In this document: one piece after another, positions 6,268 to 23,948 of the stretch
How the letters are laid out: each line of letters begins with the position of its first letter
How positions within the stretch are numbered: position 1 is the stretch's first letter
Notes under the pieces: generated by a model
The model's database searches: none
What the model saw: only the letters and a program-made list of their open reading frames with translations
Told to the model about the DNA's origin: nothing
Translations under genes and position numbers: made by a program
Origin: a virus
Strand: one strand, 5' to 3'
DNA length: 24,808 nt
Virus record (IMG/VR): IMGVR_UViG_3300027704_003277
Coordinates: 1 to 24,808 of that record

Positions 6268-6510
6268 GTGAGAGTAAGGATAGAAGTTAAGTTGAGGGAT
6301 GGTGTAAAAGATCCTCAAGCAGAAACAATAAAGAAGGTGTGTAACAGCAGTGAGGATCTTGGTGCTAATATGATTCGGACGTTGATCATGGGTAAGTACT
6401 TTGAAATTGAAGCTGATGAAGGTTTTAACATTGTACAATTATGTGATCGGATATTAGCAAATCCAGTAATAGAACAATATACAATCACAGATATAGATAA
6501 GGCCTCGTAG
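6268..6510 (+). CDS. purS: Phosphoribosylformylglycinamidine synthase subunit PurS
   Basis: 80 residues from GTG 6268, the normal PurS length. Seen: RVRIEVKLRDGVKDPQAETIKK (2-23), the conserved N-terminal strand and DPQ block; GKYFEIE (42-48), matching the GKxxEIE motif; and CDRILANPVIEQYTI (59-73), matching the C(D/E)xxLANPVIExY signature. PurS bridges PurL and PurQ in the FGAM synthase complex of purine synthesis, channelling ammonia for conversion of FGAR to FGAM. No purL or purQ is present here, so it would act with host enzymes or with phage genes elsewhere. Purine genes, including purS, are known auxiliary genes of marine myophages, thought to raise nucleotide supply. Its TAG stop is supplied by positions 8-10 of tRNA-Arg. 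Confidence 0.93.
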   Translation: MRVRIEVKLRDGVKDPQAETIKKVCNSSEDLGANMIRTLIMGKYFEIEADEGFNIVQLCDRILANPVIEQYTITDIDKAS

Positions 6511-6577
6511 CTCAGCTGGATAGAGCAACAGCCTTCTAAGCTGTGGGTCGCAGGTTCGAATCCTGCCGAGGTCGCCA
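6501..6577 (+). tRNA. tRNA-Arg (anticodon UCU)
   Basis: A clean cloverleaf: acceptor GGCCTCG/CGAGGTC, D-stem GCTC/GAGC, anticodon stem ACAGC/GCTGT with loop CTTCTAA (anticodon TCT), T-arm GCAGG/CCTGC with TTCGAAT, discriminator G and encoded CCA. It reads AGA, which dominates Arg codons in the radical SAM genes downstream but is rare in the first genes of the window. Its first ten bases overlap purS, and tRNA positions 8-10 form the purS stop. Confidence 0.97.
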
Positions 6578-6591: not shown

Positions 6592-7311
6592 ATGACAAAA
6601 ATAGACGAAGATTATGAAGCATGGGAAGCGTTCCCACAACATAGATGGATATTTAATAAATTAGAGTTATCCTTGAAGTTGGGGTATATGTGTGGCCCTG
6701 CTTGTGTGCCAGTTCCTAAAACAGGCTTTTATATAGTCAGACCAATATATAATTTGTATGGTATGGGAGTGGGTGCCCAAAAATTGTATCTGCGTTATTG
6801 GGATGACAAAAATGCAATAACCGAACATATGTTTATACCACCTGGTTATTTTTGGTGTGAATTGTTTACCGGTAATCATTATAGCATTGATTACCAATGG
6901 ACTGATGGTGGTAGAGGTGGTATTCATTCTCACTGGAGCCCTACGTGTACTACAATAGGACAGGTAGGCAGTAATATACAACAATTTTCTCGTTGGGAAA
7001 AGATAGAGAATAAATATCATGAGTTGCCTAATTGGTTAGACTCATTTTACGATTGTAAAGAACTTAATATAGAATATAAAGATGATAGGATATTAGAAGT
7101 TCATCTTAGGACTGGTAATGATATTTTACATGAAGATCCAATTGGGACTGAAATAATTCCTAATTGGTTATCAGATAAACGTAAATATATTCGGGATTTA
7201 TTAGATGATGGTTGGGAGTATTATGAAAACTATAATAATGGTAAGGCGTATGACGCTTCTGGATATATCGAAGATCCCAGAATAGGGTATTTGAAGAGAT
7301 GCAAATTGTAA
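6592..7311 (+). CDS. Conserved phage-type protein of unknown function
   Basis: 239 residues. I recognise the pattern (DYEAWxxxPxHRWxFNKLEL; GPACVPVP; VRPIYNLYGMG; PPGYFWCE; EVHLRTGND) from marine myophage proteins of unknown function. The blocks VRPIYNLYGMGVGA (49-62) and LNIEYKDDRILEVHLRTGND (157-176) loosely recall the glycine-rich loop and the metal-binding strand of ATP-grasp enzymes, but I cannot show this. It has no signal peptide and no membrane segment. It begins 14 bases after tRNA-Arg with a GGGAA upstream, and overlaps the radical SAM gene by 13 bases. Confidence 0.75.
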   Translation: MTKIDEDYEAWEAFPQHRWIFNKLELSLKLGYMCGPACVPVPKTGFYIVRPIYNLYGMGVGAQKLYLRYWDDKNAITEHMFIPPGYFWCELFTGNHYSIDYQWTDGGRGGIHSHWSPTCTTIGQVGSNIQQFSRWEKIENKYHELPNWLDSFYDCKELNIEYKDDRILEVHLRTGNDILHEDPIGTEIIPNWLSDKRKYIRDLLDDGWEYYENYNNGKAYDASGYIEDPRIGYLKRCKL

Positions 7312-10807: not shown

Positions 10808-11446
10808 ATGGAGTTCAATCTTAATGATGGTCAACACGCTTCTTTAGTTGGTTGTGAAGATAATGTAGGTATAATGTTATCTGGGGGACTAGATAGTTGT
10901 TTGTTACTTACAATGATGTGTGAGAACTTTGATAAACAAACATACATATTATTCACAATGGACAAGCCTGATGGTAGTTCTAGGTGGGTAGAGAAGATTC
11001 TAGATTTTGTTTCTGAACGATACCCTACAAATGATTATTATCAACAAATAATACAGGGTGGAAAGGAAGATGAAACTAAAGAGCTTGGGATTACCGGAAA
11101 AGTTGGGTTTACTGATATTCTTGATAACTATTACAGTAATCTGGGTGTACTTTATAGCGGCAATACTAAAAATCCACCTATTGAGTTAGACCATAATACA
11201 GCTGTACCAGATCGTAGCGCAGCTTTAAGAGCTCAAGAGAAGTGGGATAAATTTGCCATGCCTTTTGCTCACTTAAATAAATCACACACAGTTGAATTGG
11301 CTCATGGGTTTAGATTTGATCATGTGTTTACTATGACACACACTTGTACAGAGAGGGCTAGAGGGAGGTGTGGTGTTTGTTGGCAATGTCGAGAAAGACA
11401 ATGGGGATTCAAAGAAAATAATTTAAAGGATCCAGGTAAAAACTAG
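10808..11446 (+). CDS. QueC-like PP-loop ATPase
   Basis: 212 residues. SGGLDS at 25-30 is the PP-loop. The C-terminus has four cysteines, C180, C188, C191 and C194 (CxxxxxxxCxxCxxC, then RER), like the zinc site of QueC, 7-cyano-7-deazaguanine synthase. QueC turns 7-carboxy-7-deazaguanine into preQ0 using ATP and ammonia. The length is close to QueC (about 220-230). But the middle is divergent, with LDHNTAVPDRSAALRAQEKW in place of familiar QueC sequence, and no queD, queE, queF or DNA-insertion gene is nearby. It may therefore be a QueC-fold enzyme with another substrate. AGAGGA is the ribosome-binding site. The stop abuts a promoter, so this is the last gene of its transcription unit or is read through. 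Confidence 0.8.
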   Translation: MEFNLNDGQHASLVGCEDNVGIMLSGGLDSCLLLTMMCENFDKQTYILFTMDKPDGSSRWVEKILDFVSERYPTNDYYQQIIQGGKEDETKELGITGKVGFTDILDNYYSNLGVLYSGNTKNPPIELDHNTAVPDRSAALRAQEKWDKFAMPFAHLNKSHTVELAHGFRFDHVFTMTHTCTERARGRCGVCWQCRERQWGFKENNLKDPGKN

Positions 11447-11511: not shown

Positions 11512-11760
11512 ATGGCAAACGAAGCAGATATGGCACACCTCGACCAGCGTGTCTTTAAAATGGCAGCAATGCTAGATACTACTATTCGATATCATGCTGA
11601 TAGTATTGAAACAGATGAGATGGAAAATAACTATCTCGATATTTGGTTGAAAAAGGAACGCGATCCGCTCCTTGTTGTAATCCTAGCTACTATTACTGGT
11701 GCCCGCGATCCTGAAAACGTTGAAGGCGCTGAGGGGGAATCAGCAGCAAATACCGGATGA
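11512..11760 (+). CDS. Acidic 82-residue protein leading the radical SAM operon
   Basis: Unrecognised. It has a helical N-terminal region with many Met, Asp and Glu residues (ADMAHLDQRVFKMAAMLDTTIRYH), then DIWLKKERDPLLVVILATITGA, and an acidic, Gly/Ala/Ser-rich tail (RDPENVEGAEGESAANTG). No cysteines and no signal peptide. It is first after the promoter, with a near-consensus ribosome-binding site, and its stop overlaps the start of the carbamoyltransferase (ATGA). A small, well-translated protein at the head of a string of modifying enzymes could be their substrate, a carrier or a regulator, but nothing in the sequence proves this. Confidence 0.75.
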   Translation: MANEADMAHLDQRVFKMAAMLDTTIRYHADSIETDEMENNYLDIWLKKERDPLLVVILATITGARDPENVEGAEGESAANTG

Positions 11761-13196
11761 GGGTTCTTGGATTCTCTGAGGGGTTCCACGATGCAGCCGT
11801 AGCTGTCATACATAATGATGGAATACTCTTTGCTGGACATAGCGAAAGATTTTCTAAGATAAAGAATGACAAAAAGATTTGTCAGGAATTGAAACAACAT
11901 GCGCGAAGATACACCACGGGACTCAGAACTCCTAAAATTGCTTTTTATGAACGGTCATTTATCAAGAGGACGCGTCAGATCAGGGCGGGGCAATGGAAAG
12001 ATGCTCTACGCCCTCGTCATCTTGCTTATAGGTATGATCATTGCTTTGCTCATCATTTGTCCCATGCAGCTGCAGCCTTCCAGTGTTCTCCATTCACTGA
12101 CGCAGTTGCACTTATAGTTGATGCTATAGGTGAATGGGACACTGTTAGTTCATGGCGATGTAGTTATGACGAAGATGGTAATGCTGAATACAAGAAGTTA
12201 GACTCAATACAGTATCCCACTTCCGTAGGTTTATTTTATTCTGCCGTAACAGATAGAATAGGATTAAAACCTATGGAAGAGGAATATATTACTATGGGTA
12301 TGGCTGCGTTTGGTCATTCTAACGAAAAACTATACAATGCTCTGAAAAAAATGTTAGCTCATTCGAATCTTCATAGAGGAATGCGTCGCGAGCTATTAAA
12401 TGAAACAAAAGAGGACATAGCTTATAATGCGCAAGCTCTGACTGAAGGAATATTAAGAGGATTCATTAATAAGTTATCAAAGAAAGGCTTACCAATAGTA
12501 TATGGAGGAGGAGTTGCATTGAATAGTGTAGCTAATGGTAAATTATTTAAAATGAAAAATCATTATATCTTTCCTAATCCAGGTGACGCCGGATCTGCAA
12601 TAGGGGCCGCGGCATTAGTTACTAAGAAGCAATTGAAATTAGATCATATGTTTCATGGCTATGAATTACCTCTGTTATCCGATAGTCATATAAAAGACGT
12701 AGTTGATATTCTTGAAACTGGAGAAGCTGTTGGGATAGCTGCTGGAAGGGCTGAGTTTGGGCCGAGAGCTCTTGGTAATAGAAGTCTACTATGTGACCCA
12801 AGAACAGGTGAAAATAAAGACAAAGTGAATCAGATAAAGAAGCGGCAAATGTATAGGCCATTTGCTCCTTCTATACTAGAAGAATATGTAAAAATTCATT
12901 TTAAGACAACATCTAAATGTGACTATAGCTATATGCAATATGTTGTTCCAACTAAAACACGTGATTTTATAGCTACTCAACATATTGATAAGAGTGCTAG
13001 AATTCATACCGTATCAAATAATCTCAATGACGTTTCTTCTTTAAGACGAATTTTAGAATGTTGGTATGATAGAACTGGTTGTCCTACGTTACTTAATACT
13101 AGCTTAAACATAAGAGGCAAACCAATGGTTAATGATCAAAAAGATGCTGTCGCGTTTGAGAAAGAGTATGGAGTAAAAGTATTTTGCAATGGATGA
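11757..13196 (+). CDS. NodU/TobZ-type O-carbamoyltransferase
   Basis: 479 residues, somewhat shorter than NodU/CmcH (about 550). These enzymes move a carbamoyl group from carbamoyl phosphate through carbamoyl-adenylate to a hydroxyl on a sugar or natural product. Seen: the N-terminal Kae1-like domain with HHLSHAAAAF (99-108; the His pair binds metal), D122-A-I-G125, VYGGGVALNSVANG (248-261) and GDAGSAIGAA (276-285); and the C-terminal YrdC-like part with GRAEFGPRALGNRS (330-343), RPFAPSI (367-373) and TSLNIRGKP. All the motifs I expect are present. Homologs are frequent in marine phages. It is coupled to the 82-residue gene by ATGA and overlaps the first twitch radical SAM gene by 8 bases, so carbamoylation is probably a step of the same pathway, possibly on a glycan. 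Confidence 0.92.
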   Translation: MRVLGFSEGFHDAAVAVIHNDGILFAGHSERFSKIKNDKKICQELKQHARRYTTGLRTPKIAFYERSFIKRTRQIRAGQWKDALRPRHLAYRYDHCFAHHLSHAAAAFQCSPFTDAVALIVDAIGEWDTVSSWRCSYDEDGNAEYKKLDSIQYPTSVGLFYSAVTDRIGLKPMEEEYITMGMAAFGHSNEKLYNALKKMLAHSNLHRGMRRELLNETKEDIAYNAQALTEGILRGFINKLSKKGLPIVYGGGVALNSVANGKLFKMKNHYIFPNPGDAGSAIGAAALVTKKQLKLDHMFHGYELPLLSDSHIKDVVDILETGEAVGIAAGRAEFGPRALGNRSLLCDPRTGENKDKVNQIKKRQMYRPFAPSILEEYVKIHFKTTSKCDYSYMQYVVPTKTRDFIATQHIDKSARIHTVSNNLNDVSSLRRILECWYDRTGCPTLLNTSLNIRGKPMVNDQKDAVAFEKEYGVKVFCNG

Positions 13197-14592
13197 TCGC
13201 ATTGCCCTTATCAAAAATAAACTAGAACAACAAATTAGCCCGACTTTTTGTTTGGCTAAATTTCATCACGTTACAATTTATTTGCAGACTGGTGAAACCC
13301 ATAGTTGCTATCACCCTCCTCCTCATAAGATCCCTCTAATAGAGTTGGAGCGTGATGCTTCTGCACTACACAATACTAAACAAAAGAAACTAGAACGAAA
13401 ACAAATGCTCGAAGGTAAGAAACCTAAGGGCTGTCAGTATTGTTGGAATGTAGAATCATTAGGGGAAGAATATATTAGTGATAGACACGAAAGAAACGCA
13501 TCTATCTATAGAGAAGATAGAGTTAAAGAAATTGTCGAGCAAGGATTTGATCATCATATCAATCCTGAATATATTGAAATAAGTTTTGGTAATGAATGTC
13601 AATTTAAGTGTGGCTATTGTCATCCAAAAGCTAGTAGTAGTTATTGGAATGAGATAGAAAAATTTGGTCCATATGATATGGTTCAAAACCATAGATTAGA
13701 TATTGACTGGATTGATTTATTTAAAAGAGAAGAAGAGAATCCGTATGTTGATGCTTGGTGGGAATGGTGGCCTGAGGTTAGACAAACTCTTAGCATCCTA
13801 AGAATAACTGGTGGTGAACCATTACTACAACAAAGTACTTGGAAGCTATTCGATAATATTTCTAAATATCCTCTACCAGAGCTTGAAATCAATACCAATA
13901 GTAATCTTGGTATGTCAAATAGGATAGTTAAAAAACTTGCAAGATATGTTAAAGAGTTCGAAGATGAGAAAAAGATTAAACGATTCAAACTATTCACTTC
14001 GTTAGATACATGGGGCCCAAAAGCGGAGTATATTAGAACTGGACTTGACCTTGACTTGTGGGAAGAGAATTTTCATACGTACCTCAAAGAAACAAATGCC
14101 AACATAACATTCATGATGACTTTTAATATTTTGACTGTGTCGAGTTTTAAGGAGTTGTTGAAGAAGATCTTAGAATGGAGAGAACAGTATCCAGAAGTGA
14201 TTAATGGTGCAGGTCAACTGCATCGTGTGCGTTTTGATACTCCTTATCTAAAGGAGCCACTACAATATGATATGAATTTATTACCGAAGAACGAGTTCAT
14301 GCCTTATATGAACGACACTCTATCATTCATTAGGGATAATGTTGATGAAGGGAACCCTATCAAATTTAGTGATCTAGAATATTGGAAATTTAAGCGCGTA
14401 GTAGATTATATGAACCAAACAAATTATTCTCCAGAAAGATTAGAGGAGGGCCGCGCCGACTTTTATGAGTGGTTTAAGGAATTAGATCGTCGACGTAACA
14501 CTAACTTTGAGCAAACTTTTCCGGAATACAAGGATTTTAGAGAACAATGTCAGTCGATTTCAAAAGTAAAGAAGGCAAAAAATATCTCTTAA
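13189..14592 (+). CDS. Radical SAM protein with N-terminal twitch-like cysteines (1 of 7)
   Basis: 467 residues. Radical SAM core: C137, C141 and C144 (CQFKCGYC) and the SAM-binding ITGGEP (206-211). In front of it are C21, C40, C82 and C85, spaced like the auxiliary [4Fe-4S] ligands of a SPASM/twitch domain. Characterised SPASM and twitch enzymes carry this domain after the core; here it precedes it. This protein is the most divergent of the six N-twitch members: the first block reads FCLAKFHH...TGETHSC instead of FCxLPW...PNGDxxPCC, and a long charged linker separates the pairs. The substrate is unknown. It starts 8 bases inside the carbamoyltransferase gene and overlaps the next gene by 46 bases. 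Confidence 0.88.
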   Translation: MDDRIALIKNKLEQQISPTFCLAKFHHVTIYLQTGETHSCYHPPPHKIPLIELERDASALHNTKQKKLERKQMLEGKKPKGCQYCWNVESLGEEYISDRHERNASIYREDRVKEIVEQGFDHHINPEYIEISFGNECQFKCGYCHPKASSSYWNEIEKFGPYDMVQNHRLDIDWIDLFKREEENPYVDAWWEWWPEVRQTLSILRITGGEPLLQQSTWKLFDNISKYPLPELEINTNSNLGMSNRIVKKLARYVKEFEDEKKIKRFKLFTSLDTWGPKAEYIRTGLDLDLWEENFHTYLKETNANITFMMTFNILTVSSFKELLKKILEWREQYPEVINGAGQLHRVRFDTPYLKEPLQYDMNLLPKNEFMPYMNDTLSFIRDNVDEGNPIKFSDLEYWKFKRVVDYMNQTNYSPERLEEGRADFYEWFKELDRRRNTNFEQTFPEYKDFREQCQSISKVKKAKNIS

Positions 14593-15830
14593 CAGAGAGT
14601 AAATCGTTTTGCCCATTGCCTTGGATGCATTTATATGCTGAACCAAATGGTGATGTGTTTCCTTGTTGTTGTGCAACTCCATTACAAGATCAAGAAGATG
14701 ATCCTACATTTGCTAGAGGTAGTTTAGTAAATAATACAATAGAAGAGGCTTTGAATACACCCACGTTTAATAAATTAAGACTAGATATGTTACATGGAAC
14801 TAAATTACCAAGTACATGTCAAAGGTGTGCAAGATTTGAAGAAGCTGGTCAATCCACTTATAGAAAATTTGCATTAGATCATTTTGGGAAACACATAGAC
14901 TATATTGATAATACAAACGAAGATGGTTCACTTTCAAAATTAGAATTAAAGTTTTTAAATGTTAGATTTAGTAACCACTGTAATCTTGCTTGTTTGACTT
15001 GTGGGCCTTCTTGGAGTACAGCATGGTATAAACATGCTTGGTGGTTACAGAGAGAGAATAAACCAAACCTAGTTCAACTTGCAGATAATACAAAAGGTAA
15101 TCTTTGGGAACAAATTAAACCACATTTACATAATATAGAGAGGATATATTTTACCGGTGGTGAGCCAGTTGTGATGCCAGACCATTGGAAAATTCTTGAC
15201 TATCTAATTAAGAATAATTTGCAAGATCAAGTTGAGCTCCATTATAATACTAATCTTACTAAATTAAAGTTTGGTAAGTATGATTTAATTGATATGTGGC
15301 GTAAGTTTAAATATGTTGATGTTGGCATTAGCTTAGATGGTGTAGAAAAAGATGTTGAAGTAATTAGACATGGTACAAAGTGGGAAGAAGTAAAACAAAA
15401 TATGTATTTGATAAAAGATCTTCCTAATGTTCGATATCAAATTGATTGTGTTGTTAGTGTTTTTAACATTTATCATTTACCCAAATTTGAAAGACATTTA
15501 TTGAACGAGAATTTAATAAATGACCGTACTTCTATTTCTTATAATATAGCTCATGAACCCTTGCCTTTGTCTATTACGTCTATACCACAAAGTCAAAAGA
15601 AAGGAATAGCAGACTATCTTATGCAAGAGTATGAATCCCTACCGACTATGATGAAAGTCAGACACCGCAACCATGGTTGGTACCAAATAATTAGTTTTAT
15701 GAATAATGCGCACACATATAGGAAAGGCGGCATATCTGAATACTTGGACATTTCTTTGAAGTTTGCTAAAGAGGATGTACTAAAAACTATTCCATTAGTG
15801 AAATTAATATATGATTCTGATTCTCAATGA
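14547..15830 (+). CDS. N-terminal-twitch radical SAM protein (2 of 7)
   Basis: 427 residues. N-terminal twitch block FCPLPW...PNGDVFPCCC (C22, C40-C42) followed by CQRC (C91, C94), then the radical SAM motif CNLACLTC (C145, C149, C152), TGGEP (203-207) and SLDG. It should bind the SAM-cleaving cluster plus one auxiliary cluster. It is clearly paralogous to the next gene: 18 of 21 residues match over the first Cys block (residues 21-41 against 5-25), and IYFTGGEPxxMPDHxKIxDYLI is shared. The reaction is unknown; twitch enzymes include carbohydrate and cofactor dehydrogenases and peptide-modifying maturases. The start at 14547 lies 46 bases inside the upstream gene. The gene ends in ATGA with the next. 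Confidence 0.92.
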   Translation: MSVDFKSKEGKKYLLTESKSFCPLPWMHLYAEPNGDVFPCCCATPLQDQEDDPTFARGSLVNNTIEEALNTPTFNKLRLDMLHGTKLPSTCQRCARFEEAGQSTYRKFALDHFGKHIDYIDNTNEDGSLSKLELKFLNVRFSNHCNLACLTCGPSWSTAWYKHAWWLQRENKPNLVQLADNTKGNLWEQIKPHLHNIERIYFTGGEPVVMPDHWKILDYLIKNNLQDQVELHYNTNLTKLKFGKYDLIDMWRKFKYVDVGISLDGVEKDVEVIRHGTKWEEVKQNMYLIKDLPNVRYQIDCVVSVFNIYHLPKFERHLLNENLINDRTSISYNIAHEPLPLSITSIPQSQKKGIADYLMQEYESLPTMMKVRHRNHGWYQIISFMNNAHTYRKGGISEYLDISLKFAKEDVLKTIPLVKLIYDSDSQ

Positions 15831-17017
15831 ATAAAAACTTTTGTATACTACCGTGGATACATTTGTATGCCGAACCCAATGGGGACGTATATCCTTGTTG
15901 TACTGCTTCACCTTTGCCAAATATAAAGCCTTGTGTTGAAAGTCTTAAAGAACATACATTTGAAGAGATATACCATTCTGACTCCTGGAATAAATTAAGA
16001 AAAGATATGTTAGAGGGTAATAGACCTTCTGTGTGTACTAGGTGTTGGAAGTTTGATGATGCTGGTGGTTCCAGTTATAGACAATACAATAATAGAGAGT
16101 TTGAAAGGTATTATCCTCTTGTAGAAGAAACAAAAGAAGATGGTAGCTTAGACAAATTTCATTTTAAGTTTCTTAATATTAGACATAGTATAGAATGCAA
16201 CTTTGCTTGTCTTACCTGTGGTCCAGAATGGAGTACTGGTTGGAACAAGTACACTAAAGGACCTGGTAAACATACAAAGCTAGATGATAACTCTAAAGTA
16301 CCAATATGGGACCAAATCAAACCTCATTTAGAAACAGCTGATGTTATATACTTCACCGGTGGTGAACCATTAATGATGCCTGACCATTATAAGATAGTTG
16401 ATTATCTTATACAACATGGACTAACTCATTTAGAGTTAAGATATAATACGAACATGAGTAACCTAAATCTACAAAAGTATAATATTGTAGATAAGTGGAA
16501 GATGTTTAGTAAAGTTGTCCTAGGAGCTAGCATCGATGCTGTAGGTGAAAGAGCAGAGCTAATTAGATATGGTACTAAGTGGGATCAATTAGAAGCTAAT
16601 CTTTTATCAGTTAGGGGATATGATAATATCCATTTAGGTATTGATAGTGTTATTAGTATATTGAATATAGATCACATACCCGAGATGCAAATGTATTTGG
16701 AGGACAAAGGAATCGTTGACATACGTACTATTATGTCGTATAATATAGCATTCGGTCCTAGTGAGTTTAGTATAACTTCTCTACCTGATTTTATTAAACA
16801 GAGATTGGCTGATCAGTTACATGATCATTTGGAGAAATATAAGGGTAGACTTACACATCCTCATTGGGGATATAAACAAATAATTAACTTTATGTTTCAA
16901 GAAAATACATGGCAACATGGATTATTCAAGAACCAAATTGATCACAGATTCAAGTTCGTTAAAGATAGACTGCTTGAGGAAGTACCTATTATAAAAGAAT
17001 TGTACTACTATGAATAA
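15827..17017 (+). CDS. N-terminal-twitch radical SAM protein (3 of 7)
   Basis: 396 residues. Twitch ligands C6, C24 (C25) and C70, C73; radical SAM motif C124, C128, C131 (CNFACLTC); TGGEP at 177-181. Closest relative in the window is the preceding gene, so the pair arose by tandem duplication. Compared with it, the N-terminal leader is shorter by 16 residues and part of the core differs (SIDAVGER against SLDGVEKD). Arg codon use is extreme: 12 AGA, 3 AGG and 1 CGT of 16, the reverse of sufB. It overlaps both neighbours (4 and 8 bases). Probably works on the same or a related substrate as its twin; the substrate itself is unknown. Confidence 0.92.
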   Translation: MNKNFCILPWIHLYAEPNGDVYPCCTASPLPNIKPCVESLKEHTFEEIYHSDSWNKLRKDMLEGNRPSVCTRCWKFDDAGGSSYRQYNNREFERYYPLVEETKEDGSLDKFHFKFLNIRHSIECNFACLTCGPEWSTGWNKYTKGPGKHTKLDDNSKVPIWDQIKPHLETADVIYFTGGEPLMMPDHYKIVDYLIQHGLTHLELRYNTNMSNLNLQKYNIVDKWKMFSKVVLGASIDAVGERAELIRYGTKWDQLEANLLSVRGYDNIHLGIDSVISILNIDHIPEMQMYLEDKGIVDIRTIMSYNIAFGPSEFSITSLPDFIKQRLADQLHDHLEKYKGRLTHPHWGYKQIINFMFQENTWQHGLFKNQIDHRFKFVKDRLLEEVPIIKELYYYE

Positions 17018-18263
17018 AAAGCAATACTTAAACAGCAAAACCTTCTGTATGTTACCTTGGACACACATGCATATGTGGCCGAATGGTGATACGTACCCTT
17101 GTTGTCTAGGTGATTCAAGAATGCCTGTTGGATCAGCTCATTTGCAAACGATGCAGGAGCTCTGGAATAGTCGGCCAATGCGCACACTAAGAAAAAACAT
17201 GCTTGAAGATAAGGAGAGTCCGGAATGTAGAAGATGTTATGAACAAGAAGAACATGGTATTAACACTTTAAGGATTTCAAGTAATAAAGAGTTTGCAGAT
17301 CATTGGAATAAAGTAGAAGAGACAGAAGAAGATGGTAGTGCTGGTCTTGTTAATATGGCTTATTTGGATATTAGGTTCTCAAACTTTTGCAACCTTAGAT
17401 GTAGAACCTGTGGTCCCAACTTTAGTACAAGTTGGTATAATGATCATGTTAAGTTATATGGTGACCCAGGTATACCACAACTACTGAAAGTCAATGATGA
17501 TAATGATAAGTTCTTTAAAGAATTAGAACCAATGCTTCTTGATGTTGAGAAGGTTTATTTTGCTGGTGGTGAAGCTATTATCACAGAAGAACATTATAGA
17601 GTCCTAGATTACTGGCTCCATCATAATATGAAAAATGTGAAGTTGGAGTATACTACTAACTTTACAAAAATGAAATTTAAGAAGAAAACAATATTTGAAT
17701 ATTGGAATGAGTTTGAACGTGTTAACGTAGCAGCTAGTTTAGATGCTAATTGGGCTCGCGGAGAATATCTAAGAAAGAATCTTAGTTGGGAAGAGATAGT
17801 ACAGAATAGAAAAGACTTGATGGTAGAATGTCCTCATGTTGAATTTTGGATTACACCAACAGTAAGTGCATACAATGCATTCAATCTACCAGATTTCCAC
17901 AAGGAATGGATAGAAGAAGAATTAGTAAAGCCTGAGAACTTCCGAGTTAATCCTCTGCTTGATCCAGAGTATATGAGAATGCAAATACTACCCCGCAGTT
18001 ATAAAAAGAGCGTGGCTACAAAATATGAAAAACACATTGAGTATCTTAAACAGTTTGATAATACTCAACAAGTACAAAGCGACTATGAAAGTCTTATTGA
18101 CTTTTTGATGTCAGACGATAAAGCAAGACTAATTGATCAATTCATGAAGCAAACAAAACTATTGGATGACCTAAGAGAAGAAAATTTTAGTGATGTGTTT
18201 CCTGAGCTTAGTGATATGAAAATAAAATACAACCAACTTGACTTCTGGGCTAACCGCGAATGA
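17010..18263 (+). CDS. N-terminal-twitch radical SAM protein (4 of 7), GGEA variant
   Basis: 417 residues. Twitch ligands C13, C31 (C32) and C73, C76 in FCMLPW...PNGDTYPCC and CRRC; radical SAM motif C127, C131, C134 (CNLRCRTC). The SAM-amino-group motif reads AGGEA (185-189) instead of GGEP; the GGE core is kept, so activity is plausible. The C-terminal 70 residues are an extra helical, charged part ending in FPELSDMKIKYNQLDFW. Weaker likeness to members 2 and 3 than they have to each other. ATGA overlap with the next gene, 8 bases with the previous. Function unknown beyond the enzyme class. Confidence 0.9.
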   Translation: MNKKQYLNSKTFCMLPWTHMHMWPNGDTYPCCLGDSRMPVGSAHLQTMQELWNSRPMRTLRKNMLEDKESPECRRCYEQEEHGINTLRISSNKEFADHWNKVEETEEDGSAGLVNMAYLDIRFSNFCNLRCRTCGPNFSTSWYNDHVKLYGDPGIPQLLKVNDDNDKFFKELEPMLLDVEKVYFAGGEAIITEEHYRVLDYWLHHNMKNVKLEYTTNFTKMKFKKKTIFEYWNEFERVNVAASLDANWARGEYLRKNLSWEEIVQNRKDLMVECPHVEFWITPTVSAYNAFNLPDFHKEWIEEELVKPENFRVNPLLDPEYMRMQILPRSYKKSVATKYEKHIEYLKQFDNTQQVQSDYESLIDFLMSDDKARLIDQFMKQTKLLDDLREENFSDVFPELSDMKIKYNQLDFWANRE

Positions 18264-19486
18264 ATACGTGGTGCGTATATCCTTGGATTAATTTACATAC
18301 AAATACCGATGGTAGATGTAAGTTGTGTTGCCATATCTATACTGAAGACTATATTCAACACGAAGGCCGTGATGCTATTCTAGGAAAAGATCCTTGGGAA
18401 GCAATATGGTATGGTGACCATATGAATAACGTCAGAAATAAAATGACTGCTGGTGAGAAGTTAAAAGAATGTAATCGTTGTTATGAACATGAAGAGAAGG
18501 GGTTAGAAAGTAGTAGACAATGGGCAAATAAAGAATTCGCAAATCGATGGGCGCCAACATCTGGTGGCAAAGAAATGGAGGTATATGACCCAGTTAATTT
18601 AGAACTAAGACTGGGTAATGTATGCAATCTAAAGTGTGTTGGATGTTGGAGTGTTAGTTCAGATCAACTATACAATGAAAGGAAACTAATTACTAGTCGA
18701 GAACAGCTACCCGAGTGGTTATCAACACAATGGAATCACGAGTTAGAAAGTGTAGAAAGGTTTGACTGGAATTGGTTTGAAACAGAAGAGTTTGAATATT
18801 TTATTGATTCGGTTGTTCCTGGTCTAAAGAGATTATATCTTACTGGAGGCGAACCAACTCTTATCAATATGAATAGAGTGATTCTTGATAAATTAATTGA
18901 AGCTGGTAACAACGAGTGTTATGTATGTTGGACAACTAATCTAACTAACTGGCCTCCGGAGTTTTATGATAAACTAGACTTCTTTGATGCATCAGAAGTA
19001 CAGATGAGTATTGATGGTTTTGAAATGTCTAATACTTATATGAGGTACCCTACTAATTGGAAAGCGGTAGAAAAGAACTTCGAGAAAGCACAACAACTAC
19101 CTGAGAAATGTATTCTAAAAGTATACTTTGTTTATCAGGCTTGGAACATATTTGATGTAAAGAAGGTTATAAAGTGGATTGAACAAAACCAAAGGCGGCG
19201 GGTTGATTTCGCTCCAATATACCTAGAGAGTCCTGATTGGATCCACAGTTGTATTTGGCCACTCCATGTTAAAGAAGAGGTGTGTGAAGAATTACAATTC
19301 GAGACTAATTACAAGAATGCTACACAGAGTATAATTAACTATACTATGAATACAGATAAATATTCTAAGGAAAGAATGAATAAAATGGCTTTCTATATTT
19401 CTATCCTAGACAAATATAGAAAGCATAAGTTCAAAGACATATTTCCCGAATTGGATTTTATTATACAGCATGAAACAACTCACTAA
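18260..19486 (+). CDS. N-terminal-twitch radical SAM protein (5 of 7)
   Basis: 408 residues. The twitch block starts almost at the N-terminus (WCVYPW...TDGRCKLCC: C5, C20, C23, C24), then CNRC (C71, C74). Radical SAM motif C122, C126, C129 (CNLKCVGC) and TGGEP (195-199); MSIDG later in the core. C20 is an extra cysteine in the first block relative to members 2-4. The C-terminus has the KFKDIFPEL-type helix also seen at the end of members 1 and 4, which suggests common descent of the whole set. ATGA start overlap with the preceding gene; 17-base overlap with the next. Confidence 0.9.
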   Translation: MNTWCVYPWINLHTNTDGRCKLCCHIYTEDYIQHEGRDAILGKDPWEAIWYGDHMNNVRNKMTAGEKLKECNRCYEHEEKGLESSRQWANKEFANRWAPTSGGKEMEVYDPVNLELRLGNVCNLKCVGCWSVSSDQLYNERKLITSREQLPEWLSTQWNHELESVERFDWNWFETEEFEYFIDSVVPGLKRLYLTGGEPTLINMNRVILDKLIEAGNNECYVCWTTNLTNWPPEFYDKLDFFDASEVQMSIDGFEMSNTYMRYPTNWKAVEKNFEKAQQLPEKCILKVYFVYQAWNIFDVKKVIKWIEQNQRRRVDFAPIYLESPDWIHSCIWPLHVKEEVCEELQFETNYKNATQSIINYTMNTDKYSKERMNKMAFYISILDKYRKHKFKDIFPELDFIIQHETTH

Positions 19487-20432
19487 AATAATTCCAGCAA
19501 AAGAGAAATGGTTAAGTATCGTTTGGCAAGTAAACGACTTCTGTAATTTCCGTTGTTCGTATTGCAATGAAGGAAATTGGGGTGGTCGACATAGACACGA
19601 AACCGATATCGATACTATTCTAACCACACTAGATTATATCATTGATTTGTACCAAAAGCGTGGTTACCGCTATTTTAAACTGTTTTTAAGCGGGGGAGAG
19701 CCGACTCTTTGGCCTGGTCTGGTACCAACTATAGAGTTATTTCGACAGAAAGTTGAGTACCCAGGAAGCTGTGTTGGTATTAATACTAATCTATCAAGAG
19801 GGCTAACTTGGTGGCAAGAGCATGTACATTTGTTCGATGATATTGTTGCAAGTTACCATGCAGAGTTCACAAGAGACGATCGATACTTTGAGAACTATAA
19901 TTGGTTATGTACTGAGATAGCATATTGTTGTGCAAGAGTAATGATGCATAAAGAGAAGTGGGATCAATGCATCGCGATGACAGAGAGACTTAAACAATGT
20001 ACAAATTATATTATTGACTATGTACCTGTGTTAGATGAACTAAGGCCCACTACTGAAGAGTATCATTATGATGAACAATGGCAGATTGATTTCTTTAAAT
20101 CTAATCCTGATATAAAGGTAGTTAATAAACCAGTAAAAAAAGATCCTAATTATGCATATGCTAGAATGATTGTAGATGGAGAGAATAAACCTATTGATAC
20201 AAACTGGATAATGCAATCAGGTGAGAATTTTTGGGAAGGCTGGGAATGTAATATTCAAGACAGCCTTCACATTTATCCTGATGGTAGAATTAGGCAAGCT
20301 AGTTGTGGCGTCGGTCCTATTGTTGGAAACATAAGTGGTGATTTCGATCCCACACACATCAAATCAGTAATATGTCCCAAACATCATTGTCATTGTGCAG
20401 CTGATTTTAATATTGCGAAGGGGCCAGTATAA
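19470..20432 (+). CDS. Radical SAM protein with C-terminal twitch-like cysteines (6 of 7)
   Basis: 320 residues and the odd one out. The radical SAM core comes first (C25, C29, C32 in CNFRCSYC; SGGEP at 74-78). A C-terminal cysteine set follows: C260, C279 (CNIQDSLHIYPDGRIRQASC), then C302, C307 and C309 (CPKHHCHC). The IYPDGRIRQASC pattern is that of a normal C-terminal SPASM/twitch domain. So it has the standard order, while its neighbours have the permuted one. It may catalyse a different step or act as a partner. The intervening region is rich in Trp and Cys. It overlaps the previous gene by 17 bases and shares one base with the next (TAATG). Confidence 0.9.
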   Translation: MKQLTKIIPAKEKWLSIVWQVNDFCNFRCSYCNEGNWGGRHRHETDIDTILTTLDYIIDLYQKRGYRYFKLFLSGGEPTLWPGLVPTIELFRQKVEYPGSCVGINTNLSRGLTWWQEHVHLFDDIVASYHAEFTRDDRYFENYNWLCTEIAYCCARVMMHKEKWDQCIAMTERLKQCTNYIIDYVPVLDELRPTTEEYHYDEQWQIDFFKSNPDIKVVNKPVKKDPNYAYARMIVDGENKPIDTNWIMQSGENFWEGWECNIQDSLHIYPDGRIRQASCGVGPIVGNISGDFDPTHIKSVICPKHHCHCAADFNIAKGPV

Positions 20433-21790
20433 TGTTTTGTTATTCCGCTATGAATGGATTGAGTATTAATAGTTTTGGTAGAGTAAGAGCTTGTTGTGTG
20501 ATGAAACATATGAGGACGATCACAGGTGTTCCAGGCGTTACAGAAACCTATGATCTTTCTGATGATTGGAATGTGGATGGGTATCCAGGAGCAGATTACC
20601 AACCAAGAATGCGAGAAGCTGAGCATATTCATGAGTTAATTAATGATGTTGTATTATGTGAATTGAGAAAACAACTCAAGAATAATGAGAAGCCTGATGT
20701 GTGTGATAGATGTTTTCTTGTTGAAGATCAAGGAGGGATTTCATTTAGAATGAACTATGCTATAGACCACGCTGATCTCATACAAGAAGATGCAATAGAT
20801 GATGATGGAGCTATTCAAGACCTTTCAAAAATAACATACTTGGATCTAACACTTGGAAATATTTGCAATCTGCAATGTAAGACTTGTAATCCTTGGAGTA
20901 GTCATAACTGGCTAAAAGAAGTTAAAGAATTGCCCCATCAAGATTTTGAAGATAATGGTGTTGTTGAGAGAGGAACAAAACACCCTTGGTTTGTAAAAGC
21001 ATTTACAGAACGTATGAAAGATGGTGATTATTTTTTTGATCCTATATTACCAACTGTTCGAACAATTAACTTCTTGGGTGGTGAACCTTTGGTTGTTAAA
21101 GAACATGATGCGTGGTTAAAGTATATTGTTGAGAGAGGGTGGGCCAGTAACAAGAAGTTACAATATACAACAAATGGTACAACTATACCAAATAGACTAA
21201 TTGATTTGTGGTCTAATTTTGAAAGAGTTAACTTAGGTATTAGTGTAGATGCTATTGGTGACTTAGCTTCTTATGTTAGATATCCAACTAAATGGTGGCT
21301 AATAGAACAGAATTTTGATAAGCTAAGACACAGATGTAAAGAAGTAAAACAGATATATGTTCAAATGCATACTACTATAAGTAGTTTAAATATACTAAGT
21401 ATCGGAGATGTTTATGACTTTGCGTACAAACAATTCAAGGCGTTCCACTATTGGGATGATGAAAAGAAACGGCAGCATGGATATATTAATATTCTGCCTC
21501 ATATTAACATCGTTGATTATCCTCGGTTTTATCACGTAAGGAACATGCCAGATGAATTAAAAGAACAGGCATGTGAACACATTGAAATAACTTATAATAA
21601 GTACAAAGGTATGATAGAGAATGATTGGGAACTAAGTAATTTAGAAAATCTAAATAACTTAAAGCACAGTGTAATGCAAGAACGTGATCCTGGTGAGTGG
21701 CAAAAATTTATAGATGTACAAAGAGCTTCAGACAAATTTAGAAATATAGATGGAAAGAAATTTATACCATGGATGAAAAACTATGTCTGA
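20432..21790 (+). CDS. N-terminal-twitch radical SAM protein (7 of 7)
   Basis: 452 residues. The first cysteine is residue 3 (FCYSAMNGLSINSFGRVRACC: C3, C21, C22), with CDRC (C91, C94) after a 68-residue insertion-like stretch; radical SAM motif C145, C149, C152 (CNLQCKTC); GGEP at 216-219. It lacks the LPW signature but keeps the G-x-V-x-x-CC pattern. A stretch at about 165-210 is longer than in members 2-4. It starts on the last base of the upstream stop and overlaps the SGNH-like gene by 8 bases, so it should be made only by reinitiation. Radical SAM class is certain; the substrate is unknown. Confidence 0.9.
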   Translation: MFCYSAMNGLSINSFGRVRACCVMKHMRTITGVPGVTETYDLSDDWNVDGYPGADYQPRMREAEHIHELINDVVLCELRKQLKNNEKPDVCDRCFLVEDQGGISFRMNYAIDHADLIQEDAIDDDGAIQDLSKITYLDLTLGNICNLQCKTCNPWSSHNWLKEVKELPHQDFEDNGVVERGTKHPWFVKAFTERMKDGDYFFDPILPTVRTINFLGGEPLVVKEHDAWLKYIVERGWASNKKLQYTTNGTTIPNRLIDLWSNFERVNLGISVDAIGDLASYVRYPTKWWLIEQNFDKLRHRCKEVKQIYVQMHTTISSLNILSIGDVYDFAYKQFKAFHYWDDEKKRQHGYINILPHINIVDYPRFYHVRNMPDELKEQACEHIEITYNKYKGMIENDWELSNLENLNNLKHSVMQERDPGEWQKFIDVQRASDKFRNIDGKKFIPWMKNYV

Positions 21791-22607
21791 TGGGACTGTA
21801 ATATCATTTGGTTGCAGTCATACTGCGGGCAGTGAGATTGATGGGATGGGCGATTCAGATTATAACAGACAACATTCGTATGGTGCACATTTAGCTAAAA
21901 AGTTTGGTTATGATCATATGAGTTTTGCTTTGTGTGGGGGGTCGAATCATCGAATTTTTGTGTTGACTACACAAGTGTTAAAGGAGATAATAGTTGGTAC
22001 ATGTAACCTTGTTCCGCATCTAAGAAAGAACCACAAGTATTTTTTTCTCATTGGTTGGACGAGTTTAAATAGGTTTGATCTAAGATATAGTAATGATGAG
22101 ATATACGAACAGTGTGGAGATGCTGGAGATAAGTTGGATAGTAAAATTATTCCAGCTTGTGTTGGTATGAATCCAAAAATTATTAATGACAAAGACCTAC
22201 GCAGAACAATTAAGTATATTCCATATGTAACTGATAACGTAGTAATGGCAGATCAATTAGCTAGTTATATATTTGCTCTGCAAACCATGCTTGAAACTAA
22301 TAACATAGATTATTATATGTTTAACGCTATTGAGAATCATTTTAAAACAGACTATTTTACTCAAGATCGATATGATGTACATGCAAAGCCCACTTGGCGG
22401 CCAGGTAATACTACTCTATACGATAACATAGATGAAACGAAGTATTATCATCCTAAAAGTTATACAGAAAATTATTATAGGTGGTGTTTGTCTAAAGGTC
22501 ATAAGAACCAAAGTAATAAATATTGGCATCTTGGTGAGCCGGCTCATATTGATTGGGCCAATCATATTTACCCGGAGATATTAAATGTTTACCCACATTT
22601 GGAATAA
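21783..22607 (+). CDS. SGNH/GDSL-hydrolase-like protein
   Basis: 274 residues. Seen: VISFGCSHTAGSE (6-18) with S12 in the place of the nucleophile of block I; LCGGSNHRI with N55 (block III-like); FLIGWTSLNRFD; and GEPAHIDWANHI near the end with H255 as the likely catalytic His. SGNH enzymes remove or move acyl groups on sugars, lipids or peptides; phage versions are common and mostly untested. The order of blocks and the length fit, but the GDSL motif itself is replaced by GCSHT, as in other phage members I know. It closes the coupled gene string after the last radical SAM gene, fitting a deacetylase or acetyl-esterase role on a glycan, which is inference. Confidence 0.75.
   Translation: MSDGTVISFGCSHTAGSEIDGMGDSDYNRQHSYGAHLAKKFGYDHMSFALCGGSNHRIFVLTTQVLKEIIVGTCNLVPHLRKNHKYFFLIGWTSLNRFDLRYSNDEIYEQCGDAGDKLDSKIIPACVGMNPKIINDKDLRRTIKYIPYVTDNVVMADQLASYIFALQTMLETNNIDYYMFNAIENHFKTDYFTQDRYDVHAKPTWRPGNTTLYDNIDETKYYHPKSYTENYYRWCLSKGHKNQSNKYWHLGEPAHIDWANHIYPEILNVYPHLE
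22574..22577 (+). promoter_or_regulatory. Ribosome-binding site of the 43-residue membrane peptide
   Basis: GGAG at 22574-22577, seven bases before ATG 22585, marks the start of a small gene that lies partly inside the end of the SGNH-like gene. Confidence 0.6.
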
Positions 22608-22716
22608 ATTCATTACGTGGATTACATACCCTTCGTTTTGGTTGCGTCGACGAAGGATGATTAGAGAAATACGCAAATCAGATCCATTCATATATGAAGG
22701 TAACAACGATGAATGA
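22585..22716 (+). CDS. 43-residue single-span membrane peptide
   Basis: Short ORF with GGAG seven bases upstream, overlapping the preceding gene by 23 bases and the glutaredoxin gene by 8. The product has a hydrophobic, aromatic N-terminal half (FTHIWNKFITWITYPSFWL), then a positive cluster RRRRMIREIRK and the tail SDPFIY. The positive residues after the span suggest a cytoplasmic C-terminus. A tiny membrane protein ending in a RKxDPFIY motif next to glutaredoxin is something I recall from T4-like cyanophages. Function unknown. Confidence 0.7.
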   Translation: MFTHIWNKFITWITYPSFWLRRRRMIREIRKSDPFIYEGNNDE

Positions 22717-22984
22717 AATAAGTGAAAGCTACACTAAAGGGTTATATAAGATTTATACAAGAGATAATTGTGTATATTGTGACGCAGCTAAAGTGTTAAT
22801 GAAAAAGTATGGATTACATATAACTGAATATAATTTAGAGTCACATCCCCACAACAAAGACGAATTGAAGAAGTTGGTGCCAGAAGCGACTACTGTGCCT
22901 CAAATCTTTGTAGGTAAAAAGCATATTGGTGGGTATGATGCCTTTAAAACATATGCTGAGGAGAGTCTCGAAAGCGGAAGATAA
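22709..22984 (+). CDS. Glutaredoxin
   Basis: 91 residues from ATG 22709 (an in-frame ATG at 22694 is possible, but AAGG at about 22697-22700 favours 22709). Seen: the active site C21-V-Y-C24 after the strand YKIYTRDN, T62-V-P64 (cis-Pro glutathione site) and GGYDA (74-78). It is a dithiol glutaredoxin that uses glutathione to reduce disulfides, for example in ribonucleotide reductase, and glutaredoxins can also carry Fe-S clusters. Phage glutaredoxins (nrdC-like) are common in T4-like viruses. It follows the small membrane peptide with 8 bases of overlap. Confidence 0.95.
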   Translation: MNEISESYTKGLYKIYTRDNCVYCDAAKVLMKKYGLHITEYNLESHPHNKDELKKLVPEATTVPQIFVGKKHIGGYDAFKTYAEESLESGR

Positions 22985-22988
22985 TATT

Positions 22989-23948
22989 ATGAAACTTACA
23001 ATATTAGATAGCGGGCCTGAAAAGAATGAACTAAACAAGAACTCTATGGGGGGAACAGAACTTATGCAGAATCGATTGTATAAGGAAATGCCTAAAGAGT
23101 TAATGGAACAATTCCAAATTATTTGTTCAAGAGCTCGGCGCATCAAAGATGACAAGAAAACTATTCTATGGTGTCATGATCTAGCGTTGGATCCTGAAGT
23201 TGAACATTTAAAGGATGGTGGCCATGAAAAATTCAACAAATTGGTATTTGTTTCTCATTGGCAGCAGCAAGAGTATGTTAATCATCTTGGTGTTCCTCAT
23301 TCTGCTGGATTTGTATTACAAAATGCAATTGATCCAATACCTGAACACGAGAAACCAGACGATGTTATTAATCTGGTCTACTTCTCGACGCCCCATAGAG
23401 GATTAGATATATTAGTTCCTGTGTTTAATGGATTGATGGCAGAACATTGGAAGAATATTGAGAAACCAATTAAGCTGCATGTATTTTCTAGCTTCAGTTT
23501 ATACGGCTGGCCTGAGAGAGACAAACAGCACGAGCAAACAATACAGCAATGTAAGGACCATCCGGATATTATTTACCACGGCGCAGTAAGCAATGACGAG
23601 ATGAGAAAGGCATTGGAAGACATGCACATCCTAGCTTACCCCTGTGTGTGGCCAGAAACGAGTTGTCTAGTTTTAATGGAATCGATGTCCGCCAGGCTAG
23701 CTTGTGTACATAGTTCGTTTGCAGGATTACCCGAGACAGCTGCTAATTGGACTTTAATGTATCCTGTACACGAAGACCCTAATGAGCATGCACAGATATT
23801 TGCACAGAACCTGCACAATGCAGTTATGATGTTAGACGACGATACATACCAGGCACGTTTAGATATGCAAAAGCAATATTGTGATGCATTTTATAATTGG
23901 GAGGTAAGAGCTATGCAGTGGAATTCATTCTTAGAAAGTAGGTTGTGA
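22989..23948 (+). CDS. GT4-type glycosyltransferase
   Basis: 319 residues. The start is ATG 22989 with GGAAG at 22976-22980; the frame is open further upstream, but that part overlaps glutaredoxin. Seen: the N-terminal M20-G-G-T-E-L (donor/acceptor loop), FVSHWQQ (87-93), YFSTPHRGLD (131-140), HGAVSNDEM (197-205) and E223-x7-E231 (PETSCLVLMESM), the EX7E that binds the nucleotide sugar in GT-B retaining enzymes of family GT4. The N-terminal Rossmann domain is short compared with cellular GT4 enzymes. It transfers a sugar to an unknown acceptor and fits a surface- or virion-glycan role beside the carbamoyltransferase and SGNH gene. Confidence 0.9.
   Translation: MKLTILDSGPEKNELNKNSMGGTELMQNRLYKEMPKELMEQFQIICSRARRIKDDKKTILWCHDLALDPEVEHLKDGGHEKFNKLVFVSHWQQQEYVNHLGVPHSAGFVLQNAIDPIPEHEKPDDVINLVYFSTPHRGLDILVPVFNGLMAEHWKNIEKPIKLHVFSSFSLYGWPERDKQHEQTIQQCKDHPDIIYHGAVSNDEMRKALEDMHILAYPCVWPETSCLVLMESMSARLACVHSSFAGLPETAANWTLMYPVHEDPNEHAQIFAQNLHNAVMMLDDDTYQARLDMQKQYCDAFYNWEVRAMQWNSFLESRL

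Follow-up and report, generated by a model that had tools for sequence, protein, structure and literature searches.

What does a virus of marine bacteria do with seven radical SAM genes in a row? The window (here the whole stretch analysed, 24,808 nucleotides of viral DNA from IMG/VR record IMGVR_UViG_3300027704_003277) is filled between positions 13189 and 21790 by seven consecutive radical SAM open reading frames (ORFs), R1 to R7, whose neighbours overlap by 1-46 nt. An earlier note on this DNA had described seven overlapping genes with CxxxCxxC and GGEP/GGEA motifs, and this is borne out by the ORF coordinates and a motif scan: each of the seven proteins has one CxxxCxxC and one GGEP, the latter as the variant GGEA in R4. 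R1-R3 and R5-R7 are placed in the radical SAM superfamily by PF04055 (R6 slightly below the cut-off) and R4 by NF033640, the NCBIfam family of twitch domain-containing radical SAM proteins (N_Twi_rSAM; curated cut-off 170 bits). The array is laid out as follows.

13189..14592, plus strand: R1, N-twitch radical SAM protein, 467 aa; NF033640 311 bits; R1 orthologue clade support 1.0
13249-13443: R1 twitch cysteines C21/C40/C82/C85
14547..15830, plus strand: R2, N-twitch radical SAM protein, 427 aa; NF033640 342 bits; N-terminal SPASM PF13186 match; R3 is its sister in the tree
14610-14828: R2 twitch cysteines C22/C40/C91/C94
15827..17017, plus strand: R3, N-twitch radical SAM protein, 396 aa; NF033640 346 bits; PF13186 at residues 6-74
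15842-16045: R3 twitch cysteines C6/C24/C70/C73
17010..18263, plus strand: R4, N-twitch radical SAM protein, 417 aa; NF033640 398 bits; PF13186 at 13-77
17046-17237: R4 twitch cysteines C13/C31/C73/C76
18260..19486, plus strand: R5, N-twitch radical SAM protein, 408 aa; NF033640 294 bits; orthologue clade support 1.0
18272-18481: R5 twitch cysteines C5/C23/C71/C74
19470..20432, plus strand: R6, radical SAM protein, core first, with a C-terminal cysteine set at 20247-20396; PF04055 1e-6
20432..21790, plus strand: R7, N-twitch radical SAM protein, 452 aa; NF033640 278 bits; orthologue clade
20438-20713: R7 twitch cysteines C3/C21/C91/C94

In six of the seven proteins (R1-R5 and R7), the CxxxCxxC core is preceded by C-X13/14-G-X4-C and then CxxC. 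The first half of the SPASM motif is defined as CX9-15GX4C followed by CX2C (PMC6231123), and the CX13-14GX4C and CxxC of these six fall within that definition. None of these seven cysteines (four N-terminal, three in the core) varies among the six N-twitch proteins or in a 42-sequence alignment. All six exceed the NF033640 cut-off across the full model by a margin far beyond chance (278-398 bits against 170), and the SPASM Pfam family PF13186 matches residues 6-94, N-terminal to the core. The full seven-cysteine SPASM motif, which serves two auxiliary clusters, is absent from the N-twitch proteins, where only the four twitch cysteines and one adjacent cysteine are conserved. In characterised SPASM/twitch members the domain lies C-terminal to the core, whereas in these six proteins it sits before the core.

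Is this N-terminal domain a displaced twitch domain? When a profile of the N-twitch family was aligned with BtrN (2-deoxy-scyllo-inosamine dehydrogenase, PDB 4m7t), the cores aligned at residues 9-50 and profile residues 6-77 fell on BtrN 185-259. In this single alignment the four N-terminal cysteines of the profile fall on four BtrN cysteines, so that the first ~75 residues correspond to the C-terminal twitch of BtrN. We take these BtrN cysteines to be the cluster ligands. The twitch cluster of BtrN is ligated by four cysteines (PMC6231123). The predicted secondary structure of the N-terminal domain (Cys, a hairpin at 19-29, Cys-Cys, a helix at 55-65, CxxC) has the same order as the twitch layout of SkfB and BtrN (PMC6231123). 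Judged from these alignments, the six proteins carry a circularly permuted twitch domain, homologous to the C-terminal twitch of BtrN. The two differ in position, C-terminal in BtrN and N-terminal here, and in length, 270 residues as against 396-467. The earlier claim that six of the proteins have their auxiliary cysteines ahead of the core, the reverse of characterised SPASM/twitch enzymes, is confirmed by the cysteine positions and the BtrN alignment. To our knowledge, every structurally solved SPASM/twitch enzyme has its auxiliary cluster domain after the barrel. Relocation to the N-terminus would be structurally simple, because the twitch strand of SkfB packs on the first barrel strand (PMC6231123).

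R6 is the exception, and is the gene that the earlier note had left out of the N-terminal set. It has the usual domain order, core first, and lacks the N-terminal cysteines; C260, C279, C302, C307, and C309 in its C-terminal region are invariant in 9 diverse sequences. It falls outside NF033640 (18.7 bits, core region only), no Pfam family matched its C-terminal cysteines, and no relative was found in the collection of cultured phages. An earlier count of about fourteen Fe-S clusters per set stands as arithmetic if all sites are filled (7 core, 6 N-twitch, and 1 in R6).

An AlphaFold2 model of R4 (pLDDT 94.1, pTM 0.90) finds its closest solved folds, by Foldseek against the PDB, in SkfB, CteB, and anSME, with TM-scores of only ~0.37. 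The radical SAM barrel is shared with these SPASM-twitch peptide maturases, but here the domain order is reversed, a second auxiliary-cluster motif is absent, and no RRE family was found. Might the array then modify a peptide or protein, either a RiPP-like product or a virion or tail protein? The structural matches point this way, as do several weak NCBIfam matches to peptide maturases. However, the overlapping array holds no precursor-like ORF of at least 60 aa, and there is no room for a small precursor ORF inside it because the genes overlap. The additional N-terminal domain is a twitch, with no RRE family among the Pfam matches of the R proteins, and the small gene between R6 and R7 in a deep branch does not, by eye, resemble a precursor. 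We consider a peptide or protein substrate fairly unlikely, with a shorter or more distant precursor still conceivable.

Do the seven genes belong together, or do they travel independently, as would speak against a common pathway? The order R4-R5-R6-R7 recurs in ~40 viral loci. Among loci found with R4, R5 is followed by R6 in 36/38 and R6 by R7 in 35/37; among those found with R6, an N-twitch gene lies immediately upstream in 75 of 80. Searches from both genes thus show the shared gene order that the earlier note had asked for, and independent travel is ruled out by the R6-seeded search. These genes form a cassette conserved among phages, and their clustering is no local accident. Two related records (G001 and G016) encode a T4-type gp23. 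The sole match in a plasmid search was to 64 residues of an Azospirillum radical SAM/SPASM protein. In the deep branch, the small gene between R6 and R7 is SnoaL/NTF2-like by eye.

Have the paralogues arisen by recent duplication, or are they old? All six N-twitch proteins are paralogous and R2 and R3 form a recent pair, as would be expected of a single enzyme amplified in tandem, whose copies share much the same task and are retained to raise dosage or to sequester iron. In the tree, however, R2/R3 is the only recent duplicate pair, while R1, R4, R5, and R7 each group in a clade with their counterparts from divergent viruses. The N-twitch paralogues are 19-22% identical to R1, which together with the separate clades marks old, separate lineages, and none of the seven has lost its CxxxCxxC or GGE motif. 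Purifying selection is strong (dN 0.00-0.10, dS mostly 0.1-0.9). Tandem amplification was rejected on the cross-lineage clades of R1, R4, R5, and R7, and we consider it very improbable; positional orthologue clades and purifying selection fit distinct steps better. The paralogues are old and kept by position, which is compatible with a multi-step pathway.

What surrounds the cassette? The following genes flank it in the window.

7299..8804, plus strand: B12-binding-type radical SAM protein, part of the same run of genes, 5' of the cassette; PF04055 2e-13, weak PF02310; TIGR04479/TIGR04072-like
10808..11446, plus strand: QueC-like PP-loop protein; PF06508 2e-10 over 148-204; QueC match confined to the last ~57 residues
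11512..11760, plus strand: 82-aa ORF without cysteine, conserved in four other loci (L008-L011)
11757..13196, plus strand: O-carbamoyltransferase, TobZ/NodU type, accessory to the cassette; PF16861 1e-44, PF02543 6e-30; PDB match TobZ, GdmN
21783..22607, plus strand: SGNH-like protein (DUF6071), next after R7; GCSH and H...H motifs without variation among 11 relatives
22694..22984, plus strand: glutaredoxin; PF00462 3e-16; syntenic in the same four loci
22926..23948, plus strand: glycosyltransferase group 1, GT-B type; PF13692 2e-9, PF00534 9e-9

Two further ORFs (8812-9849 and 9867-10799) matched no Pfam family. The carbamoyltransferase shares both Pfam halves with TobZ/NodU and matches the TobZ and GdmN structures, but differs in being a cassette accessory. 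The earlier note had seen it at the head of the run and suggested a multi-step modification pathway. The pathway idea fits the old, positionally conserved paralogues; the carbamoyltransferase as a fixed head does not hold. A carbamoyltransferase is present in 6/18 records and 6/80 R6-seeded loci, and in loci found with the carbamoyltransferase itself it adjoins N-twitch genes in 10 of 12 but is located after the run. An essential head gene was rejected, since it is missing from most cassettes.

Although the earlier note named no substrate, the neighbourhoods indicate glycans. The group 1 glycosyltransferase is the sole PF13692 match above cut-off in each of four records (G000-G003), always just 3' of the cassette. 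Elsewhere, a GT-B-fold protein (family A7, fold assigned by structure) lies immediately upstream in all 28 loci possessing it, and a glycogenin-like GT8 protein lies upstream in other loci. The GT-like profiles behind such counts were themselves derived from neighbours of the cassette. PDB profile searches with A7 (GT-B-like), A9 (GT-like), A10 (SGNH), and g11 returned nothing significant, and g11 and the A9 family, read as GT-like, had no significant database match. Deep-branch loci carry genes for UDP-glucose dehydrogenase, a sugar C-methyltransferase, and a cytidylyltransferase/mannose-P-isomerase. In five Bacteroidota loci a relative lies beside polysaccharide genes (carbamoyltransferase in view in 4/5); many cellular relatives are single genes with no evident glycan neighbours. 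The neighbours that indicate sugars are glycosyltransferases (GT8-like and GT-B), genes for nucleotide sugars, the carbamoyltransferase, and the SGNH-like protein. The glycosyltransferase neighbourhood is weaker evidence than it appears, because such phages have many of these genes in their host-recognition regions in any case (PMC7029224).

Could the product instead be a hypermodified base, of the 5-carbamoyloxymethylcytosine or 7-deazaguanine type, made with the carbamoyltransferase and the QueC-like gene? PMC8670742 describes a phage carbamoyltransferase that produces 5-carbamoyloxymethylcytosine, the window has a QueC-like gene (10808-11446), and G001 and G005 carry QueD- and FolE-type genes. 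The 7-deazaguanine route would call for QueC, QueD, QueE, FolE, and a transglycosylase such as DpdA. QueD is found in 4/7 records and FolE in 2/7, with the QueC match in the window only fragmentary; in G001, QueD/FolE lie ~90 kb distant. A thymidylate-synthase-family partner was found only in modified contigs, and carbamoyltransferases of unmodified contigs are flanked by group 1 glycosyltransferases (PMC8670742). The window has the latter arrangement, and the thymidylate-synthase family (PF00303) occurs in 0/9 long records, all of them fragments, which weakens 5hmC-type DNA modification. Most cassettes, moreover, are without a carbamoyltransferase. We consider a modified base improbable.

Are there cultured phages with similar genes? 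In Vibrio phage K566, four N-twitch genes (VPHK566_0303/0305/0306/0308) have GT8/GT4 genes around them, with pagP and LpxC-type genes not far off; KVP40.0272, also N-twitch, adjoins a PF00534 gene. Two KVP40-type phages, QD01 and VH1_2019, are listed with Vibrio natriegens as their host. Both phages thus have N-twitch genes beside glycosyltransferases, as here, but at 21-25% identity, in ones to fours, and with no R6 relative found in the phage collection. The pagP and LpxC-type genes, and the B12-binding radical SAM relatives of lipid/hopanoid families within the cassette, would suit enzymes acting on a small molecule that has nothing to do with glycans, for example a lipid or the precursor of a cofactor. 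The recurrent neighbours are glycosyltransferases and not lipid synthases, and we hold such a substrate to be about as improbable as a modified base.

How much of this has been described? Large radical SAM sets in marine T4-like viruses have already been counted, with 12 genes in one 183-kb genome, TARA_ERS488813_N000010 (PMC5332604), and pelagimyophages have been noted to carry radical SAM "gene cassettes" within their host-recognition cluster (PMC7029224). As judged from these reports, they are very probably the same kind of gene set in the same kind of virus. The passages concerned give number or presence only, without gene order, domain order, positional orthology, or partners. Six R proteins are members of NF033640 and R6 is not, and the cassette is a gene arrangement, not a feature of that family; literature searches on the family name or on phage twitch arrays yielded nothing about function. 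The earlier judgement that the pathway was undescribed must yield on the gene sets; cassette order, permuted domain order, and glycan context are new relative to the searched literature.

The best explanation, to which we give a probability of about one half, is that the cassette encodes radical SAM enzymes with separate functions, which most likely act successively on a sugar. The same ordered set recurs in uncultured phages beside sugar-transferring enzymes and is therefore probably an unstudied multi-step sugar-modifying pathway. The substrate would be a nucleotide-linked sugar or a growing glycan built by phage glycosyltransferases. Six enzymes are of the permuted twitch type, with the auxiliary [4Fe-4S] domain before the barrel, where BtrN has it after. 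SAM would be cleaved at the core cluster of each, and the resulting 5'-deoxyadenosyl radical would abstract a hydrogen atom from the substrate, while the auxiliary cluster would bind the substrate or accept an electron (in a dehydrogenation of the BtrN type, or else in an epimerisation or an elimination). Where a lineage has them, the carbamoyltransferase, SGNH-like protein, and glycosyltransferases would cap, trim, or attach the sugar. The likeliest destination would be the host surface polysaccharide, altered against competing phages, and the second a virion glycan. More tentatively, and with the odds somewhat against it, the cassette may represent a widespread and so far undescribed viral radical-enzyme assembly line, in which a glycan or nucleotide sugar passes through distinct radical reactions catalysed in turn by five or six permuted twitch enzymes and one conventional enzyme. 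Individual lineages would add carbamoylation, B12-dependent radical methylation, or further tailoring, and the phages would obtain sugars beyond the capacity of their hosts.

A large family with the twitch domain in front is a circular permutation made by nature, through which the requirements of that domain can be tested cleanly. With each cassette position a separate orthologue, a many-step radical pathway in uncultured phages is open to testing, and a role in surface sugars could be examined in the cultured Vibrio phages. The cassette also bears on the abundance of Fe-S genes in marine T4-like viruses. If the substrate is a surface sugar, oxygen-sensitive and iron-costly radical chemistry would be tied to phage competition at the cell surface.

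The window, a complete IMG/VR virus record, is a linear fragment of 24,808 bases whose plus strand carries seven ORFs at 13189-21790, R1 to R7, each overlapping the next. The earlier note took all seven for radical SAM genes, six with cysteines ahead of the core, and both claims hold: CxxxCxxC and GGEP/GGEA are found in every ORF, and all except R6 score 278-398 bits against NCBIfam NF033640 ('twitch domain-containing radical SAM protein'; curated cut-off 170 bits). In these six N-twitch proteins, C-X13/14-G-X4-C...CxxC lies upstream of the core. Pfam places an N-terminal SPASM domain in R2-R5, with R5 under the cut-off. R6 has the ordinary order, a core followed by five invariant C-terminal cysteines, and its C-terminal end matches no Pfam family.

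How does the permuted order relate to characterized enzymes? The SPASM motif is CX9-15GX4C-gap-CX2CX5CX3C-gap-C (PMC6231123), and the N-twitch motif matches the first half of this definition. None of the N-terminal cysteines C13, C31, C32, C73, and C76 (R4 numbering) varies across 42 diverse sequences, and neither do those of the core. A profile of these sequences, searched against the PDB, aligns residues 6-77 with C-terminal residues 185-259 of the twitch dehydrogenase BtrN and the core with its N-terminal residues 9-50; the four N-terminal cysteines fall on BtrN C189, C207, C252, and C255 (chain numbering including the tag, from the alignment). The BtrN twitch holds a [4Fe-4S] cluster by four cysteines (PMC6231123). 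In BtrN the twitch is C-terminal of the barrel, whereas in the six R proteins the homologous cysteines are N-terminal. Since the twitch strand of SkfB comes back alongside the first strand of the barrel (PMC6231123), a shift of the domain to the N-terminus would be structurally straightforward. A confident AlphaFold2 model of R4 (pLDDT 94.1, pTM 0.90) predicts a twitch arrangement, with a hairpin at 19-29, a helix at 55-65, and the CxxC at 73-76. Foldseek gave only partial PDB matches to this model, headed by the peptide maturases SkfB, CteB, and anSME (TM ~0.37); full-length matches were exclusively other viral radical SAM proteins, one from KVP40. These nearest solved folds suggest, as a less likely alternative, that the cassette modifies a peptide, but no precursor-like ORF of 60 aa or more was found in the overlapping array, nor an RRE family in the R proteins.

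The gene order of the window recurs in other viral genomes. A search of IMG/VR seeded with R4 gave 44 loci, four of which (L008-L011) keep nearly the entire order, down to the carbamoyltransferase, glutaredoxin, and glycosyltransferase; R6 comes next after R5 in 36/38 cases and R7 after R6 in 35/37. R6 served as a second seed to remove the bias of R4 seeding, and an N-twitch gene lies directly upstream of R6 in 75 of the best 80 R6-seeded loci, which are not dereplicated, so that counts exceed the number of independent events. These loci show 39-83% identity and include a second large group with a shorter run (L189-L230). The 57.7-kb record G013 (L042/L136/L137) has 18 NF033640 matches, 13 above the cut-off, in two separate N-twitch cassettes; R6-like genes are also present in the second. 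T4-type gp23 occurs in G001 and G016, and the nearest counterparts of the G001 protein in cultured phages come from a Stenotrophomonas phage, from Methylophilales and Pelagibacter phages, and from cyanophages. Phage-like N-twitch cassettes also lie on contigs of Rhodobacteraceae and Flavobacterium MAG bins (L075, L056), probably viral contigs or prophages within the bins.

Has one enzyme simply been amplified? This is largely refuted by a tree of 103 sequences, in which R1, R4, R5, and R7 each cluster with their positional counterparts from divergent viruses, an ancient split, and R2 and R3 are the sole recent pair; some inner supports are low, making the deep branching order less certain. Among L008-L011, dN for R1-R7 is 0.00-0.10 and dS mostly 0.1-0.9. 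The positional clades and the low dN are both consistent with enzymes that have distinct roles and are kept by selection.

The upstream part of the window holds the following features between or among its protein genes:
4104-4177, tRNA-Thr(TGT), between protein genes
4645-5061, CxxCxxCC zinc/iron-chelating protein (PF03692) in the upstream run, also in G001
6501-6577, tRNA-Arg(TCT), between protein genes

A complete SufB-type gene (PF01458) at 1144-2610 was found in none of 17 related records searched; its nearest phage matches (66-67%) belong to Microcystis phage MaAM05 and to a phage from faeces. Compared with G001, ~1144-4177 (SufB, phosphoesterase, small ORFs, tRNA-Thr) is an apparent insertion that separates DUF6267 from the next gene common to both. 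The SufB-type protein could help to supply many Fe-S clusters. In many lineages (cluster 6, e.g., L021:6748-8916) a 722-aa B12-binding radical SAM protein is inserted between R4 and R5; the window lacks this insert and has a different B12-type radical SAM gene upstream, at 7299-8804. Two PP-loop-like proteins with SGGxDS motifs seen by eye follow (8812-9849, without a Pfam family match, and 10808-11446), and their genes are also adjacent in L008-L011. There, a PhyH-type dioxygenase gene (L008:1725-2600) separates the B12-type and PP-loop genes; it is missing at that position in the window, where an unrelated 310-aa ORF stands behind the first PP-loop gene. PhyH-like genes are seemingly nearby in the Bacteroidota relatives L072 and L083.

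A nucleic-acid modification pathway is another, less likely alternative, suggested by the known 5hmC carbamoyltransferase and by a QueC-like gene in the window, the match (10808-11446) being confined to the C-terminal end. However, no PF00303 gene was found in nine long, fragmentary records, QueD and FolE of G001 are ~90 kb distant, and group 1 glycosyltransferases flank the carbamoyltransferases of unmodified contigs (PMC8670742).

The neighbours point to glycans. A 395-residue protein stands directly ahead of the N-twitch run in all 28 loci that carry it; its sequence gives only a GT10 match below threshold, and its model (pLDDT 89.6) resembles GT-B glycosyltransferases, fucosyltransferases among them. 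Other lineages have a glycogenin-like GT8 gene upstream. Genes of the deep branch encode a UDP-glucose dehydrogenase, a protein of sugar C-methyltransferase type, and a cytidylyltransferase to which a mannose-phosphate-isomerase-like cupin is fused. The window and G001-G003 each have a sole above-cut-off PF13692 glycosyltransferase, which sits right behind the cassette. In Vibrio phage K566, GT8 and GT4-like genes are interspersed among four N-twitch genes; pagP and an LpxC-type gene lie close by (L148, 18733-19999), making phage-made lipid A changes possible. KVP40.0272 belongs to a three-gene set including a PF00534 gene. Cellular relatives are mainly single genes, and five Bacteroidota loci lie in polysaccharide regions, with a carbamoyltransferase in view in 4/5. 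On a virus contig of 7,955 bases, obtained from a sorted marine cell, an N-twitch gene comes after a carbamoyltransferase gene.

The earlier note called the proteins a database family with no known function and the suggested pathway undescribed. The family is indeed in NCBIfam, and the open-licence literature yielded no report of its function, permuted order, conserved gene positions, or partners. The second claim stands in part: singly the proteins are a named family, and the ordered multi-enzyme cassette and permuted architecture are undescribed in the literature searched; twelve radical SAM genes had been counted in one T4-like marine genome (PMC5332604) and radical-SAM cassettes noted (PMC7029224).

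Successive radical steps acting on a sugar are the likeliest role. The N-twitch enzymes would have both core and auxiliary clusters filled, and the R enzymes would carry out a series of radical reactions on a sugar substrate, whose product may reach the host surface. According to PMC7029224, pelagimyophage radical-SAM cassettes and glycosyltransferases lie in the host-recognition region, so glycosyltransferases are common there regardless of the cassette. Its authors proposed that these glycosyltransferases alter the host surface, which agrees with radical chemistry on a sugar.
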